Part shown: positions 6,228-12,785 of the stretch, piece by piece
Position numbering within the stretch: the first letter of the stretch is position 1
How the letters are laid out: the number at the start of each line of letters is the position of its first letter
Made by a program: the position numbers and the translations under genes
Assembly: GCA_025056375.1 (NCBI GenBank)
Contig: JANWWH010000009.1
Location: 1 to 35,777 of the forward strand
Length of the DNA stretch: 35,777 nucleotides
Direction: 5' to 3'
Source: Aquificaceae bacterium
Lineage (GTDB): Bacteria > Aquificota > Aquificia > Aquificales > Aquificaceae
The notes under the pieces: model-generated
Databases searched by the model: none
What the model was told of the DNA's origin: nothing
Seen by the model: only the letters and a program-made list of their open reading frames with translations

Positions 6228-6258
6228 TTCCATGATATACACGGCGAGGTGGTAAACT

Positions 6259-8742
6259 ATGGTTGGACAGAGGGAAAGACTCTTTTATGAAACACTTAAA
6301 AACCTCTTTGTGGGTGCAAAAGTGGAAGGAAAATCTGGTTACATAAACCTTATTAGGATTAAATCAAAGTATTACAGTAAGATAGAGGAGCTTATAAAGA
6401 GGGACATAGAGGAAATACTTCAAAAGTGGCCAGATTTTAGAGAGGAGCTCTTTGATAAGCTCTACAGCTTCTTCAAGAATTACTTTTCTGAGAGCGGTTC
6501 AGTTCACTTTAGCTCCTCGGGCGTCCACAATCAAGTTTACGAGAGGGTCTACGGGGATGGAGAGGATGTATCTCTCTTCTGGAAGACACGCGGGCTTTAC
6601 TATGTGAAGACAGACAGGCTCTTCCGAAGCATGAGGGTAGAAATAGAAGGGAAGAAGTTCTACTTTGATGCGAGCCAGATAGAACACAGAAAAAGTAACG
6701 AGAGAAAAAGCCTCTATTACCAGTTTGATAAGGTGGAAGGAGGAGAGCTACGCCTTAAGGTCCAATACGGAGAGGGCGGTGTTAGGACTGACTTGGAGGA
6801 GATATGCAGGCAAGCGAAGGCTTCAGGCGTGTCCTTAAAGGAAGAGGAGTTGGAAAAGGCGATAAGAACCTTCGAGAGGCAAGGAGAGGCGGACTTTTTC
6901 TTACATAGAAGGGCAAGAGAGTTTTTAAAGGAGCAGTTTGACCTCTGGCTATACCGATACCTAACGGATACTGGCGTAGAGTGGACGCAGGAGAGGATAG
7001 AACAGGTTCAGTGGTTAAAAAGGGTAGCTTACAAGTTGATAGATTTTGTGGGGCAGTTTGAGGAGGAACTGGTGAGAATTTGGGAAAAGCCTAAGTTTGT
7101 GAGGAGATCCAACTACGTTGTTAGCCTTGACAGGATAGCGAGCAAAAAGGGGGGTAAGGAGGTAATAAAAAAGCTCATACAGCACGCGGGTTGGAAGGAA
7201 CAGGTGAGGGAATGGATAGAGCTTGGAATACTGGAAAGAGAGCCCGAGGCTTTGATGGAAGGTGATGTTATAAAGGGAAAATACAGGTTTTTGCCCATAG
7301 ACACGAAATACTTCAAGGACGTGGAACTTGAGGTGCTTAAGCTTTTCCATCCCCTTGACAGAGAACTTGATGGTTGGCTGATAAAGAGCGAGAACTGGCA
7401 GGCACTTAACACCATACTCCCAAAGTTCAGAGGAAAGGTTCAGACCATATACATAGACCCCCCCTTCAACCTTGAGGGTTCCAACCAGTTTCTCTATCTA
7501 ACCAACTACAGAGACAGCACATGGGCAACCATGCTCGAGAACAGACTGATTTTAGCCAAAGAGTTTCTTAAGGAAAGTGGAAGCATTTTCCTCAGGTGTG
7601 GTCAAAAGGGCAACTGGATTGCCAGATGCCTTATGGACCAGATTTTTGGTGAGGAAAACTACAGGAATGAGATAATCATCAAGAGGGGTAAAAGGACTGA
7701 GAGCAGAGAAGGAAAAAGGTTTGAAAGCGACACAGAATCACTGTTTTTTTACGCTAAAGATAAGGACAGGATGTTCCCTTTTCGCGTGCCCCTGAGAAGG
7801 AAAAGGGAGGAAGAGATGGAGTGGACAAGTATGTTTTTCCCCGAAGAGAGAGGCGACCCCCTCAGGGTTATCTTCGGCATAGGCATAAGGGCACCTGTGG
7901 GCACCCACTGGCAGTTTAGTCAAGAGAGAATAGAACAAGAAGCCAAGAAGGGCAACATAAGGATAATTTGCAAGAGATGTAGCTACATACACCAGGACCC
8001 AGAAGTTACCATAGAAAGCTGTCCTCAGTGCGGTTCTGTAGACTTCAGAGCGGAATACAGAAGAAGGGAGGTGCCTCTTACCAACAACTGGACGGACATA
8101 CCCGGCTATGTCTACACTGTGTCCAAGTCAACGGGCTTTCTGACTGAGAACTCGGAGACCCTTCTTAGGCGCGTCATAGAGTCCACCTCCGAAGAGGGAG
8201 ACCTCGTAATGGACTTCTTTTTGGGCTCGGGGACGACCTGTGCAGTGGCTCACAAGCTCCGGAGAAAGTGGATAGGGGTTGAAATGGGCGAGCACTTCTA
8301 CGGGGTCGTGTTGCGGAGGATGAAAAGGGTTTTAGCTTACGACAAGAGCGGTATATCGGAGGAAGAGGGAGTTAAAGAAAAATACAACAAAAACAGTGCA
8401 GGTGGTTTTTTCAAGTATTACGAGCTTGAGCAATACGAGGATACCCTTTCCAAGGTCAAGTACGAGGATGAGGAGCCCTTTGAGGGCTTTGAGGATACAT
8501 ACGGAGCCTACCTTTTTATGAAGGACGAGAAGCTTGCTTGGGTGCTGGAGCTGGGAGAGCAAGAGGTATGCGTCAACTTTTTCAACCTTTACGATGATGT
8601 GGACTTGGCGGAGACCCTTTCCAACCTTACGGGTAAGTTCTTGGAAAGCATCCACGAGTGGGGGGTGGTCTTTGAAGGGGGAGAAAGAATAGCTTGGAAT
8701 GATGTGGATTACAGGCTGGTAAAACCTCTCCTATGGTGGTAA
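6259..8742 (+). CDS. Site-specific DNA methyltransferase, Type III Mod-like
   Basis: Predicted amino-DNA methyltransferase (N6-adenine most likely) that protects host DNA and probably supplies target recognition. Of its 827 residues, the catalytic motif IDPPFN sits at 399-404 and the AdoMet motif FLGSG at 654-658. The order DPPF before FxGxG is the beta class used by Type III Mod proteins. Between them lies a recognition-type region with a four-cysteine zinc ribbon (C571-x2-C574, C588-x2-C591) and the family segment NNWTDIPGY. The N-terminal 390 residues precede the methylase core and are far longer than in classical Mod proteins of about 650 residues; they are helical and carry no motif recognised here. 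GAGGTGG lies 8-14 nt before the ATG. It is the first gene of a three-gene operon, followed after 3 nt by a nuclease-like gene. Confidence 0.88.
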   Translation: MVGQRERLFYETLKNLFVGAKVEGKSGYINLIRIKSKYYSKIEELIKRDIEEILQKWPDFREELFDKLYSFFKNYFSESGSVHFSSSGVHNQVYERVYGDGEDVSLFWKTRGLYYVKTDRLFRSMRVEIEGKKFYFDASQIEHRKSNERKSLYYQFDKVEGGELRLKVQYGEGGVRTDLEEICRQAKASGVSLKEEELEKAIRTFERQGEADFFLHRRAREFLKEQFDLWLYRYLTDTGVEWTQERIEQVQWLKRVAYKLIDFVGQFEEELVRIWEKPKFVRRSNYVVSLDRIASKKGGKEVIKKLIQHAGWKEQVREWIELGILEREPEALMEGDVIKGKYRFLPIDTKYFKDVELEVLKLFHPLDRELDGWLIKSENWQALNTILPKFRGKVQTIYIDPPFNLEGSNQFLYLTNYRDSTWATMLENRLILAKEFLKESGSIFLRCGQKGNWIARCLMDQIFGEENYRNEIIIKRGKRTESREGKRFESDTESLFFYAKDKDRMFPFRVPLRRKREEEMEWTSMFFPEERGDPLRVIFGIGIRAPVGTHWQFSQERIEQEAKKGNIRIICKRCSYIHQDPEVTIESCPQCGSVDFRAEYRRREVPLTNNWTDIPGYVYTVSKSTGFLTENSETLLRRVIESTSEEGDLVMDFFLGSGTTCAVAHKLRRKWIGVEMGEHFYGVVLRRMKRVLAYDKSGISEEEGVKEKYNKNSAGGFFKYYELEQYEDTLSKVKYEDEEPFEGFEDTYGAYLFMKDEKLAWVLELGEQEVCVNFFNLYDDVDLAETLSNLTGKFLESIHEWGVVFEGGERIAWNDVDYRLVKPLLWW

Positions 8743-8745
8743 ACC

Positions 8746-9216
8746 ATGAACAAACCAAGGAAGACAAATTACACGGATATAGAGTTTAGAGACATGATAA
8801 GGGGGGTCAGCGATAGTAGCCAAAGGGTTTACTTTAGCGATGTGGACTTTGTGGAGTACGTATATAAAAACAATACCAGAGAGTATGTATGTATTTTGGA
8901 AGCCAAAAGGAAGTATCAAATAGGGAACGGTGAATACAGACTGGTTGATTCAGACAAGGCAGTCATAGGCTTGGCAAAGCGGTTAGGAATACCCTTCCTT
9001 TTTGTGTTTTATGAGGAGGGAAAGCTCGAAGACCAAGAGGACGTCCTTTTAGTGTGGGTAGAGGAAGAGGTGGAACTTCTTAGCGTTAGCGGGGCACTCC
9101 AAGAGGGTAAAGCGGTCAATTTAAGTGTGGGTAAACTCAAGGAATTCCTAAGATGCGTAGGAAGCAGACCCTTTAAAGATTGCTGGAGAGAACTTCAAGG
9201 GTCTTTTCTTAGATGA
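8746..9216 (+). CDS. Small PD-(D/E)XK nuclease-like protein, putative restriction subunit
   Basis: No named family is recognised by sequence alone. The 156 residues show a PD-(D/E)XK layout: acidic D32/D34 in FSDVDFVEY, a strand ending in ILEAKRK with E52-x-K54, then a helix/strand DKAVIGLAKRLGIPFLFVFY (residues 70-89), which resembles the segment after the catalytic lysine in many such nucleases. The N-terminal TDIEFRDMIRG helix could supply the first acidic residue. It lies 3 nt after the methyltransferase stop and overlaps the helicase start by ATGA, so the three products are made together. The inferred role is the DNA-cutting subunit of the system, since the helicase shows no nuclease motif of its own. 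This is an inference from motif and context. Confidence 0.65.
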   Translation: MNKPRKTNYTDIEFRDMIRGVSDSSQRVYFSDVDFVEYVYKNNTREYVCILEAKRKYQIGNGEYRLVDSDKAVIGLAKRLGIPFLFVFYEEGKLEDQEDVLLVWVEEEVELLSVSGALQEGKAVNLSVGKLKEFLRCVGSRPFKDCWRELQGSFLR

Positions 9217-11267
9217 TACTGAGCGGAATAATAAAGAGCCTGAACTTAGACTGCGACAACCTCCTAAAGACAGACCTTTTTACCTTTTCTCTTTCCAAGA
9301 CCCTCTTTGAATATCAGGTGGAGGCAGTTAAGAGTGCGGTAAAAGTCCTATACCTCTACTACGGAGAAGGTAGAGAGAAGCTATACCATAGGTATAAAAG
9401 GTATTCGGAGGGTAAAAGTCTTTGCTTCAGGCTTAAAAAACAAGCTGTAGAGATACTTAGTAGTGAAGGTTTTCACATAGAAGAGGACAGGATATGCCTG
9501 CAACAGATAATAAACCGCGCCAGCTTCTGGATGGCTACCGGCTCTGGTAAGACGCTGGTAATTATAAAGGTAATGGAAGTTTTGAAGGAGCTAATCGGTA
9601 GAAAACTTATTCCAAAGTCAGACATTTTGTTCCTTACCTACAGAGAAGACCTTATAGAGCAGTTCACGAGGCACCTTGATGAGTTCAACCAACACAGAGA
9701 TGATAAGATACACGCTTTCAGTCTCAAAGACTATGCAAAGGTAAAGGCGAGGGTAGACTTACACTTAAACAGAGATGGTGTTGATGTGTTTTACTACAGG
9801 TCTGACCTCCTTTCGGAGGAGGAGAAGGAGAAGATACTTAACTACAGGAGATTTCCAAGAAACTGGTATCTCCTACTTGACGAAGCACACAAGGGAGACA
9901 AAAGGGACAGCAAAAGACAGGCTATATTTACCGCTCTGTCAAAGGAAGGGTTTATGTTTAATTTCTCCGCCACCTTTACCGAGGAGATAGACCACCTAAC
10001 CTGCGCTTACAACCTGAACCTTGCAGAGTTTCTTTCTCACGGCTACGGGAAAAGGATAGCACTCCTTGGATACGGCACAGAGGCAATAGTGGACAGGAGA
10101 GGAAAATTCTCAAAAGAAGAAAAGGAAAAGACGCTTTTGAAAACTTTGATTTTGTTCACGCTAATAAAAAAAGCAAGAAAGAGAACCCCTTTCTATCACG
10201 AGCCCCTTATGCTCGTGCTGGGCAACTCGGTTAATACTGAAGAGTCAGACCTTGAGCTGTTCTTTAAAGAACTTTCAAAAATTGCGGGGAAAAGGGTGTC
10301 CGACAAGATGTTCAGCTCCGCACAGGAAGAATTAAAAGAAGAACTCTCCAGCATGAGGTATGCCTTTGAGAGGGAAGCATACTCTCTAAGTGTAGAAGAT
10401 GTATCCATGGAGGAGGTCCTTTATAGGGTTTTTAACGCGGAGGGTCCAGGAGGAATAGAGGTGATAAAGATGGAGGAAAACGCGCAAGAGCTCATTTTTA
10501 AACACAAAGTCTCCGACAGACCCTTTATGTTGCTGAAGATAGGTGACATCTCTAACTGGTTAAAGCACAAACTGGAGGGCTACGAAATAGTTGAGAAGTT
10601 TGACACGAGAAAGGTATTCAGCGAGCTCAACAGCCCAGAAGGCTCCAGCATAAACCTTCTCCTGGGTTCAAGAGCCTTCTACGAGGGATGGGACAGCAGT
10701 AGACCCAACTTAATCCTCTACCTTAACATAGGAAAGCAAGAAGCTAAGAAGTTCCTGCTCCAGTCCATAGGCAGGGGGGTTCGCATAGAAGTCCTCTCAA
10801 AAAGAAAAAGGCTTGCCTTCGTAGACCCTCAGGAATACGAGAAAAACAGAAAATATGTGGACTATCTGGAGACCCTCTTTATCCTTGGCACAAAGCCTGA
10901 AGACCTGAAAAAAGTGCTGGAGGTGCTCAAGGAAGAAGATAAAAGAGCCAAAGAACAATCTTACGAGGTAGGTCTCTCGGTAAGAGATAAAACTCACGCC
11001 CTTCAAAGAGAAGAACCCTCAAGCTTCCAGAAAGTGCGGATAAGCGAAGAGGATTTTGAGCTCTTGAAAGCTTACTGCCAATATCTTGGTCCAAAAATAC
11101 TCCTGCTTAAGCATAATCTTAGCTTAGGAGCTCTAAGGTTTATCCTTGAAAGTATCGAAGAGCCTGAAAGATTTTACGATTTTGAAGGACAGAGCCTAAG
11201 GGACATAGAGCTAATAATGAAAAGAGTAGTGGAACACTTCAAGGTGACCTCATCTCTTCATCCTTAG
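9213..11267 (+). CDS. DEAD/DEAH helicase, Type III Res-like, apparently without nuclease domain
   Basis: Superfamily 2 DNA-dependent ATPase expected to translocate on DNA in the restriction reaction. In its 684 residues are the Walker A MATGSGKT (107-114), DEAH (223-226), the SAT motif in FNFSATF (about 250-256), the motif V segment FYEGWDSSRPN typical of Type III Res and Type I HsdR proteins, and motif VI QSIGRGVRIE (517-526). Classical Res proteins are 900-1000 residues with a C-terminal PD-(D/E)XK domain; here the last 150 residues are mostly helical and no D...ExK pattern was found. The start overlaps the preceding nuclease-like gene (ATGA). The 3' end overlaps the convergent dnaG by 18 nt. 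Confidence 0.85.
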   Translation: MILSGIIKSLNLDCDNLLKTDLFTFSLSKTLFEYQVEAVKSAVKVLYLYYGEGREKLYHRYKRYSEGKSLCFRLKKQAVEILSSEGFHIEEDRICLQQIINRASFWMATGSGKTLVIIKVMEVLKELIGRKLIPKSDILFLTYREDLIEQFTRHLDEFNQHRDDKIHAFSLKDYAKVKARVDLHLNRDGVDVFYYRSDLLSEEEKEKILNYRRFPRNWYLLLDEAHKGDKRDSKRQAIFTALSKEGFMFNFSATFTEEIDHLTCAYNLNLAEFLSHGYGKRIALLGYGTEAIVDRRGKFSKEEKEKTLLKTLILFTLIKKARKRTPFYHEPLMLVLGNSVNTEESDLELFFKELSKIAGKRVSDKMFSSAQEELKEELSSMRYAFEREAYSLSVEDVSMEEVLYRVFNAEGPGGIEVIKMEENAQELIFKHKVSDRPFMLLKIGDISNWLKHKLEGYEIVEKFDTRKVFSELNSPEGSSINLLLGSRAFYEGWDSSRPNLILYLNIGKQEAKKFLLQSIGRGVRIEVLSKRKRLAFVDPQEYEKNRKYVDYLETLFILGTKPEDLKKVLEVLKEEDKRAKEQSYEVGLSVRDKTHALQREEPSSFQKVRISEEDFELLKAYCQYLGPKILLLKHNLSLGALRFILESIEEPERFYDFEGQSLRDIELIMKRVVEHFKVTSSLHP

Positions 11268-12785
11268 CTTTCTTGGCTGTGCCTTGCTCCTTTCCCTTGC
11301 CTTCTGAAAGTCCTCCGGGTCTTCCATCTCCGGCAGTCTAAGCAGGTGGAGGCTTTCTTGAAAAGCTCTCTGGAGGTCGTAGGCTCTGAAGTTTTTTATG
11401 TAATCTGGCAGGAGGTGATACTCTTCTTTGCGGAGGGCTTCCACGAGCTCGATTGCCTGAGGTGATAGCTTTAGCCCCTCCAGCTCCACACCTTCAAAGC
11501 CAAATCTGTAAAGACCCGCCAGCAGGACAGCTTCCTGATAGCCCAGTGAGAAGCTGTTAGCCTTTTTTGTCCCTTCGACCTTTACCGTTCTTTCTTGAAG
11601 GCTTGTCAGTGGAAGCCCGGTAATCCTTGAGAGCTCCTTAAGGAGCTCATACCTCTTGACGCTGTCCGGGATAAAGCTGCAGAAGTAAAGGAGGTCCTCA
11701 AAGGCTTCTTTGTTCCCTTCTCTTATCCTTTCCAAATAGTCAACCTCTACCTCTTTAGCGGAGAGGAGAAGGTTTTTAAGGGTTTCAGGCTCTTTTCTTA
11801 CAAAAGAATCCGGGTCCTCACCCTCAGGGAGGTAGACCACCCTCACTTTCATACCTGTCCTGAGAAGGTAGGGCAAGGAAGACCTAACCGCCTTCCTTCC
11901 CGCCCTGTCTCCATCGTAGAGTAGCACCGCCCTTTTTGTAAGTTTTGAAAGGAGAAGGGCTTGCTCCTCGGTGAGTGCAGTGCCAAGGGGTGCGGTGCAG
12001 TTTCTTATGCCTTCTTGCCAGAGGCTAAGGAGGTCAAAGTAGCCCTCCACCAGTATAACTTCTTCCTTTTCTCTTATGTAATCCTTAGCTTCGTGCAGTC
12101 CAAAAAGACCTGACCCTTTCCTGAAAACCTCCGATTCGGGAGAGTTCACATACTTAGGATGGCCTTCTTCAAGACTTCTACCCCCAAAGGCTACCACATC
12201 ACCGCTCATGTCCCTTATGGGTATAACCAGCCTCTTCCTGAAAAGGTCTCTGTAAAATTCTCCCTCAACATTTACAAGGTTACCGCTCCTCTCGTAAACC
12301 TCCAAAAGACCTTCCTCCTTGAGGAGCTTTACCAGCTTCTCCGTGTCTCCGCCAAAACCAAGCTGGAATTTGTTGATGGTGCTTGAGTTCAAACCTCTGT
12401 TTTGGAGGTATACAAGAGCCTGTGGGTTTTCTCTCAGCTCCTGCCGGTAAAACTCCGTAACCCTCTGAAGGGCAAGCAGGAGCTTGCTATTCTTCTCTTT
12501 CTTCTTAAGTTTTATGGGTATGTTATACCTCTTTGCAAGCTTCTCAAGAGCTTCCAGATAGTCTATGTTTTCGTAAAGAGAAACAAACTTGACCGCATCA
12601 CCGCCCACACCGCAACCAAAGCATTTAAATATACCCCTGGAAGGAGAAACGTAAAAGGAAGGCGTGTCATCTGGATGAAAGGGGCATCGGGCAACAAAGT
12701 TGTTACCCACTCTTTTGAGTTCTATGTAAGAGGAGATGACCTCTACTATGTCTATTTTTCCAAGCTGGTCTTTGGTGGTGGGCAT
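11250..12785 (-). CDS. dnaG: DNA primase
   Basis: DnaG makes RNA primers for chromosome replication. The 511 residues show the CHC2 zinc-binding domain (C34, H37, C55, C58 in CPFHPDDTPSFY...FKCFGC), the primase core with LGFGG and FGGRSL segments, and the TOPRIM motifs VEGYFD (246-251) and YDGDRAG (290-296). The C-terminal helicase-interacting region after about residue 370 is short, since many primases reach about 600 residues, but no frameshift is apparent. The start codon has a TATAAT 7 nt upstream and no Shine-Dalgarno. The promoter overlaps that of the divergent hemD; only 17 bp separate the two start codons. Confidence 0.96.
   Translation of the reverse strand: MPTTKDQLGKIDIVEVISSYIELKRVGNNFVARCPFHPDDTPSFYVSPSRGIFKCFGCGVGGDAVKFVSLYENIDYLEALEKLAKRYNIPIKLKKKEKNSKLLLALQRVTEFYRQELRENPQALVYLQNRGLNSSTINKFQLGFGGDTEKLVKLLKEEGLLEVYERSGNLVNVEGEFYRDLFRKRLVIPIRDMSGDVVAFGGRSLEEGHPKYVNSPESEVFRKGSGLFGLHEAKDYIREKEEVILVEGYFDLLSLWQEGIRNCTAPLGTALTEEQALLLSKLTKRAVLLYDGDRAGRKAVRSSLPYLLRTGMKVRVVYLPEGEDPDSFVRKEPETLKNLLLSAKEVEVDYLERIREGNKEAFEDLLYFCSFIPDSVKRYELLKELSRITGLPLTSLQERTVKVEGTKKANSFSLGYQEAVLLAGLYRFGFEGVELEGLKLSPQAIELVEALRKEEYHLLPDYIKNFRAYDLQRAFQESLHLLRLPEMEDPEDFQKARERSKAQPRKLRMKR

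Follow-up and report, generated by a model that had tools for sequence, protein, structure and literature searches.

The operon at positions 6259-11267 probably encodes a restriction-modification system of Type III-like design in which a separately encoded, exchangeable subunit has taken the place of the fused nuclease, a replacement that has happened repeatedly. A methyltransferase (Mod) gene is followed by genes for a small candidate nuclease and for a Res-like helicase that has no nuclease domain. At least four further loci of Aquificota, hot-spring relatives of Aquifex, show this gene order, and the fused nuclease of Res was apparently lost at least twice independently.

Organization of the operon and the methyltransferase

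The operon is located on a 35.8-kb contig (C82) of the draft host genome (G000, 82 contigs); the whole stretch analysed, 35,777 nucleotides, is referred to below as the window. The original prediction had placed three open reading frames on it, with their motifs and junctions, all of which were confirmed at these positions:

6259..8742, forward strand: Mod, beta-class DNA methyltransferase, Type III-like, 827 aa
7456..7467, forward strand: DPPF, catalytic motif IV of Mod (aa 400-403)
7969..8031, forward strand: CxxC...CxxC zinc-ribbon-like insert of Mod, between motifs IV and I (aa 571-591)
8218..8232, forward strand: FLGSG, AdoMet motif I of Mod (aa 654-658)
8746..9216, forward strand: candidate PD-(D/E)XK-type nuclease, diverged phrog_16357 relative, 156 aa
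8839..8847, forward strand: D32-V-D34, acidic motif (the "PD" half)
8899..8907, forward strand: E52-A-K54, the "(D/E)xK" half, in predicted strand 47-55
9213..9216, forward strand: ATGA overlap of the small-protein stop and the helicase start
9213..11267, forward strand: Res-like SF2 helicase/ATPase without nuclease domain, 684 aa
9540..9554, forward strand: GSGKT, Walker A of the helicase (aa 110)
9879..9890, forward strand: DEAH, Walker B of the helicase (aa 223)
10761..10790, forward strand: QSIGRGVRIE, motif VI of the helicase (aa 517)
10980..11264, forward strand: helicase tail (aa 590-684), aligned to the linker of fused Res and ending at the start of the relatives' nuclease lobe

Over its entire length Mod agrees with PDLC03638 (MTase_III), PADLOC's model for Type III methyltransferases (E 5e-269). 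It also matches the Pfam family PF01555 (E 1e-38), which indicates an N6/N4-type enzyme. Its assignment to the beta class fits, since motif IV precedes motif I. The zinc-ribbon-like insert, weakly similar to an Spt4-type zinc finger, is probably located in the target-recognition region. According to a pattern check, the CxxC...CxxC insert is also present in the Mods of loci L024, L046, and L104 and absent from 38 other Mods.

A 3-nt gap separates the Mod and small-protein genes (TAA ACC ATG). The sequence GGTGGTAAAC(T/C)ATG is found 5' of both Mod (window 6248-6261) and the small protein (8735-8748), and the second copy forms the final Mod codons (WW, stop) and at the same time a likely ribosome site. 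Downstream, a convergent primase gene on the reverse strand (11250-12785) overlaps the last bases of the helicase gene. The upstream neighbours, recJ and a DUF457-like gene, are conserved in eight same-genus genomes, and neither the operon nor the primase gene is present beside them within the stretch read; the position of the operon is therefore variable.

A Res-like helicase without nuclease lobe

The helicase matches ResIII (PF04851) of Pfam (E 1.6e-15) and REase_III (PDLC03654; E 2e-20). It contains the SF2 motifs of a Type III Res, comprising GSGKT, DEAH, SAT (aa 252), and motif VI, and lacks the PD-(D/E)XK nuclease fused to the C terminus of such proteins. Its identity to fused Res proteins reaches 44% (L022) and 43% (L012), with the alignment running up to their nuclease lobe. 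A nuclease hidden in the C terminus was rejected, as no PD...(D/E)xK motif occurs in the protein and its tail matches the linker only; the predicted absence of a nuclease from the helicase was thus borne out. Neither a remnant nor a relocated copy of the fused lobe was matched in the window or the rest of genome G000, and transfer of the lobe to another place in the genome was likewise rejected.

Relatives were collected with a helicase alignment from a genome collection (one genome per species, 84,980 species) and viral contigs, giving at least 84 loci; those examined from the genome collection were the best 80 of 284, and a scan of this collection with a single protein had given no match. 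In 83 of the 84 listed loci, L048 being the exception, Res carries a C-terminal extension and comprises 937-1045 aa where complete. The extensions inspected closely end with PDFxFWL...FIDPKx, a PD-D-x-K signature. Within Aquificota, such fused relatives are L012, L022, L149, L151, L152, and L153. Among the matches listed, the fused relative nearest to the window helicase is held by L032 and L033, near-identical operons from MAGs labelled Omnitrophota and Aenigmatarchaeota; these labels probably result from a binning error. In a related genome (L031, G078) the Mod and Res genes are decayed, with several stops.

Identity of the small protein

Scans of the window small protein against Pfam, NCBIfam, PADLOC, and PHROGs revealed nothing significant, and its PDB sequence searches returned only noise. 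A profile of this protein and its L024 counterpart, however, detected relatives in genomes G036 and G052, along with a broken copy in G056 (L161) interrupted by a stop. Each of the two intact genes immediately follows, with an overlapping junction, a gene for a DPPY methyltransferase. The set of relatives was then extended to 22 viral loci, 11 of which contain a DPPY methyltransferase directly upstream. In three of the phage loci, from Streptomyces phages (L162, L163, L164), the proteins are about 308 aa long and comprise two domain copies, of which the N-terminal copy is degenerate and the C-terminal copy contains D-x-D...DYK.

The relatives match phrog_16357 with E-values of 1e-19 to 1e-21. 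The window protein has no direct match to phrog_16357 but is recognized by the family HMM built here (E 0.0044 to 3e-5). When the window and L024 proteins were left out of the HMM, it topped the non-family sequences among 6,739 segments (E 0.0044); addition of L024 improved the value to E 3e-5. Its identity to the family is about 16-26%, and the relationship, as judged from these profiles, appears real but distant. In the family alignment (A8, 16 sequences) D32, D34, and F35 are invariant, E52 is nearly so and K54 is found in most members; the D...(D/E)xK pattern that defines the PD-(D/E)XK active site (PMC1189080) is thus conserved across the family.

An AlphaFold2 model built from the window protein together with 15 viral relatives (pLDDT 72, pTM 0.74, moderate confidence) comprises helix 12-21, strands 28-30, 37-40, and 47-55, helix 68-80, and strand 84-89. 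This alpha-beta-beta-beta-alpha-beta core corresponds, with moderate confidence, to the PD-(D/E)XK fold, and the modelled D32/D34 precede the second strand while E52/K54 lie within the third, which is the usual arrangement. In a Foldseek comparison with the PDB, archaeal Hjc resolvases were the top matches (prob 1.00, E 1.2e-3), followed by more Hjc chains, the SPARDA nuclease, tRNA splicing endonucleases, and DpnI; none of the matches fell below E 0.001. An earlier single-sequence model was poor, yet several Hjc chains were among its matches. The predicted PD-(D/E)XK fold is well supported, although not proven.

Motif, family context, and predicted fold together indicate that the small protein is very probably a PD-(D/E)XK nuclease. 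They agree with the original prediction of a separate small nuclease-like protein, and the best structural matches belong to the Hjc nuclease fold rather than to a non-nuclease one. The accompanying proposal, that the nuclease of Res was split off and moved upstream, is not supported: the small protein shows no sequence kinship with the C-terminal Res nuclease, its relatives sit behind other methyltransferases in phages and bacteria, and the small proteins in other split loci belong to different families. Descent of the small protein from a displaced Res nuclease was rejected, a search of the window with the lobe having given nothing significant.

Recurrence of the split form and its evolution

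The three-gene order was looked for in all 136 Aquificota genomes available, and the loci were then read. Besides the window, the split form (lengths of Mod, middle protein, and helicase) is present in the following loci:

Window: 827, 156, and 684 aa
L024 (G022): 883, 153, and 659 aa
L023 (G063): 829, 256, and 666 aa
L147 (G008): 862, 260, and 672 aa
L148 (G023): 876, 261, and 615 aa
L048 (G053, Thermocrinis), probable split locus: middle protein 197 aa, helicase 673 aa

The reading frames of L048 are broken in Mod and probably also at the helicase end, which makes its split status less certain. For L150 (G056), which lies at a contig edge, the sequence covers no more than a short helicase end. 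Genome G023 contains one split and one fused set. Every split locus with a visible slot between mod and res has a gene there, and a nuclease motif is present in five of the six. For the short helicases of L048 and L150 the dN/dS ratio of 0.14 reveals purifying constraint; silent sites of the L023/L147 pairs are saturated, so that no ratio could be given. A different arrangement is found in L146 (5010-8468, genome G010), which encodes Mod, a 243-aa middle protein (KYDIDLEI...FIEVEE), and Res with an intact fused PD-D-x-K nuclease.

Genes between mod and res are also present in 33 of the 69 listed fused loci in which the Mod end is visible, including L034, L037, L038, L041, L042, L047, L051, and L067. 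By eye, these genes are unrelated and include, e.g., Fic-like, PIN/ImmA-like, MNT/HEPN-like, and BRO-like ones. Since about half of the fused loci hold unrelated genes there, the slot collects passengers too and looks like a cargo hot spot.

The middle proteins of the window and L024 are related to each other (BLAST E 2e-7), as are those of L023 and L147 (62%), while those of L148, L048, and L146 each stand alone. The D-x-D-[FY]...E-x-K motif is present in the middle proteins of the window, L024, L023, L147, and L148; L048 and L146 contain only looser versions. A tight form, D[ILVM]D[FYL]-x(6,18)-[ED]xK, was chosen after these proteins had been seen, and the counts obtained with it are descriptive: it occurs in three of 390 ORFs (130-320 aa) of the first set of loci, all three being middle proteins of split loci, and in none of the 33 listed fused loci with slot genes (slot ORFs of at least 100 aa). 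The comparison of five of five first split loci, the window included, with zero of 33 fused loci (Fisher 9e-6) is equally descriptive, given the post-hoc motif and the relatedness of the loci. Profile comparison detected no significant link of the middle families to each other or to known nucleases, and searches of plasmids and phages with three of the remaining middle proteins gave no hits. Two further kinds of small protein, apparently unrelated to that of the window, carry the motif in other split loci.

A tree of helicase cores separates the split forms into two groups far from each other, one comprising L147, L148, L023, and L024 with L146, and the other comprising the window, L048, and L150 with the fused L032. 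A single clade of split helicases was rejected (AU p 1.8e-9, or 1.6e-4 with L146 counted in), and the distribution of fused and split forms needs three changes on the tree. Taken together, the evidence indicates that the fused domain was lost and an unrelated nuclease recruited. Exchange or repeated recruitment is suggested by the window and L024, whose small proteins belong to one family although their motors are distant from each other. The coexistence of a middle gene and an intact lobe in L146 suggests that gain preceded loss, but this middle gene could also be a passenger. As both are present there, a middle gene does not always replace the lobe.

Proposed mechanism and alternative explanations

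In the proposed system Mod would recognize and methylate the target, as its family does, and the short Res would act as an ATP-driven motor starting at unmethylated sites bound by Mod. The small nuclease would bind the motor and cut where the fused lobe does in the relatives. A nuclease of another lineage, otherwise found beside methyltransferases in phages and Aquificaceae, could have taken the slot between mod and res, and other motif-bearing proteins may have filled the same slot in related loci. Beyond gene content, motif, and predicted fold, these steps are modelled on Type III enzymes (PMC4005696, PMC11142916).

It is unlikely that the small protein instead functions as an independent Type II-like restriction enzyme, shielded by Mod methylation, with the helicase being separate or idle. 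The relatives in phages, G036, and G052 do resemble such a two-gene pair, following a methyltransferase with no helicase nearby. In the window, however, the small protein coincides with the loss of the lobe from a helicase that has kept all its motor motifs; moreover, 156 aa leave little room for target recognition, and the sequence preference of the protein would have to match that of Mod.

About equally improbable is an operon that now only methylates, in which the middle gene is passenger cargo and the helicase a decayed, nuclease-less Res. The unrelated slot genes of fused relatives and the combination of middle gene and intact nuclease in L146 favour such an explanation, but the helicase motifs are intact, the short form has been kept in at least two lineages, the related pair L048/L150 is under constraint, and the slot is filled in every split locus where it is visible, mostly with a motif-bearing protein.

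The chances are poorer still for a protein of PD-(D/E)XK fold that serves as a regulator, DNA-binding adaptor, or brake and not as a cutter. Such folds can lose catalysis, and phage relatives carry a degenerate N-terminal domain copy; the window copy, however, has retained D32, D34, E52, and K54, and the helicase would be left without any cutter.

Removal of the Res C terminus by frameshift or misassembly, which the draft state of the genome and the broken frames of L048 might suggest, is largely refuted, since the primase gene ends in the helicase stop region on the opposite strand, the search for lobe sequence in the window and G000 was negative, and helicases of independent genomes have a similar end point.

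The separate, exchangeable nuclease subunit could be part of a more general scheme, considered here tentatively and given somewhat less than an even chance. Mod and motor would form a fixed sensor-translocator of a modular defence platform, and the nuclease would be an effector that can be exchanged, drawn on separate occasions into a slot of its own from several PD-(D/E)XK families, among them the methyltransferase-linked phage-type one. The lobe would have been lost after gain of the effector, with L146 as an intermediate.

Relation to known systems

Type III enzymes are characterized by a Mod2Res1 complex and by ATP-dependent cutting 25-27 bp from inverted sites. The window system shares the beta-class Mod, the SF2 motor of Res, and the mod-res order with EcoP15I, EcoPI, and m4C systems such as DthLIII of Desulfurobacterium (PMC8259958). 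Its close relatives have the C-terminal PD-D-x-K nuclease in Res, whereas the window Res lacks the lobe and a small protein of another nuclease lineage is encoded between mod and res. It is assigned as Type III-like and not as a plain member because the nuclease is not fused to Res. Published accounts present Res as a helicase that carries a nuclease itself (PMC8259958, PMC4005696); no description of a separately encoded Type III nuclease was found in the accessible literature, with REBASE and many subscription papers lying outside this scope.

The closest functional parallel is provided by CglI and NgoAVII (PMC4267653), which also consist of three proteins, a methyltransferase, a nuclease, and a DEAD helicase/ATPase, with ATP-driven cutting by a separate subunit. 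Their nuclease is, however, of the PLD type and cuts beside the site recognized by the R-N complex, and their methyltransferase is a Type II 5mC enzyme. Neither is found in the window system, which has a small PD-(D/E)XK nuclease candidate and Type III homologues as Mod and motor. Eco86II and BspHIV (PMC8259958) likewise have an additional conserved gene in their mod-res operons, but there it lies 5' of mod and codes for a helicase-like ATPase, and the nuclease is retained in Res.

By profile and motif, the small protein would belong with the phrog_16357 proteins of Streptomyces and other phages, which often adjoin methyltransferases. These proteins differ in having no helicase partner, in the profile length of 309 positions, and in the two domain copies of the Streptomyces phage members. 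Archaeal Hjc Holliday-junction resolvases represent the closest solved fold to the small-protein model; their role is different, and PDB sequence searches found no sequence kinship.

The nuclease lobe of EcoP15I was proposed to aid in the formation of a sliding clamp and to act on head-on collision of two enzymes (PMC11142916). A natural motor without this lobe would allow a direct test, by omission of one subunit, of whether the nuclease must be covalently attached for sliding. The operon also contributes an example of nuclease exchange from nature to ideas on the origin of restriction types by domain reshuffling (PMC6158711), suggesting that the cutting tools are swappable in this class of restriction enzymes, and directs attention to phrog_16357 as an uncharacterised methyltransferase-linked nuclease family. 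Two Aquificaceae genomes (L159:5462-6657 and L160:5823-7095) encode a small DPPY methyltransferase together with a phrog_16357-type nuclease candidate; it is possible that this two-gene unit is an unannotated Type II system.
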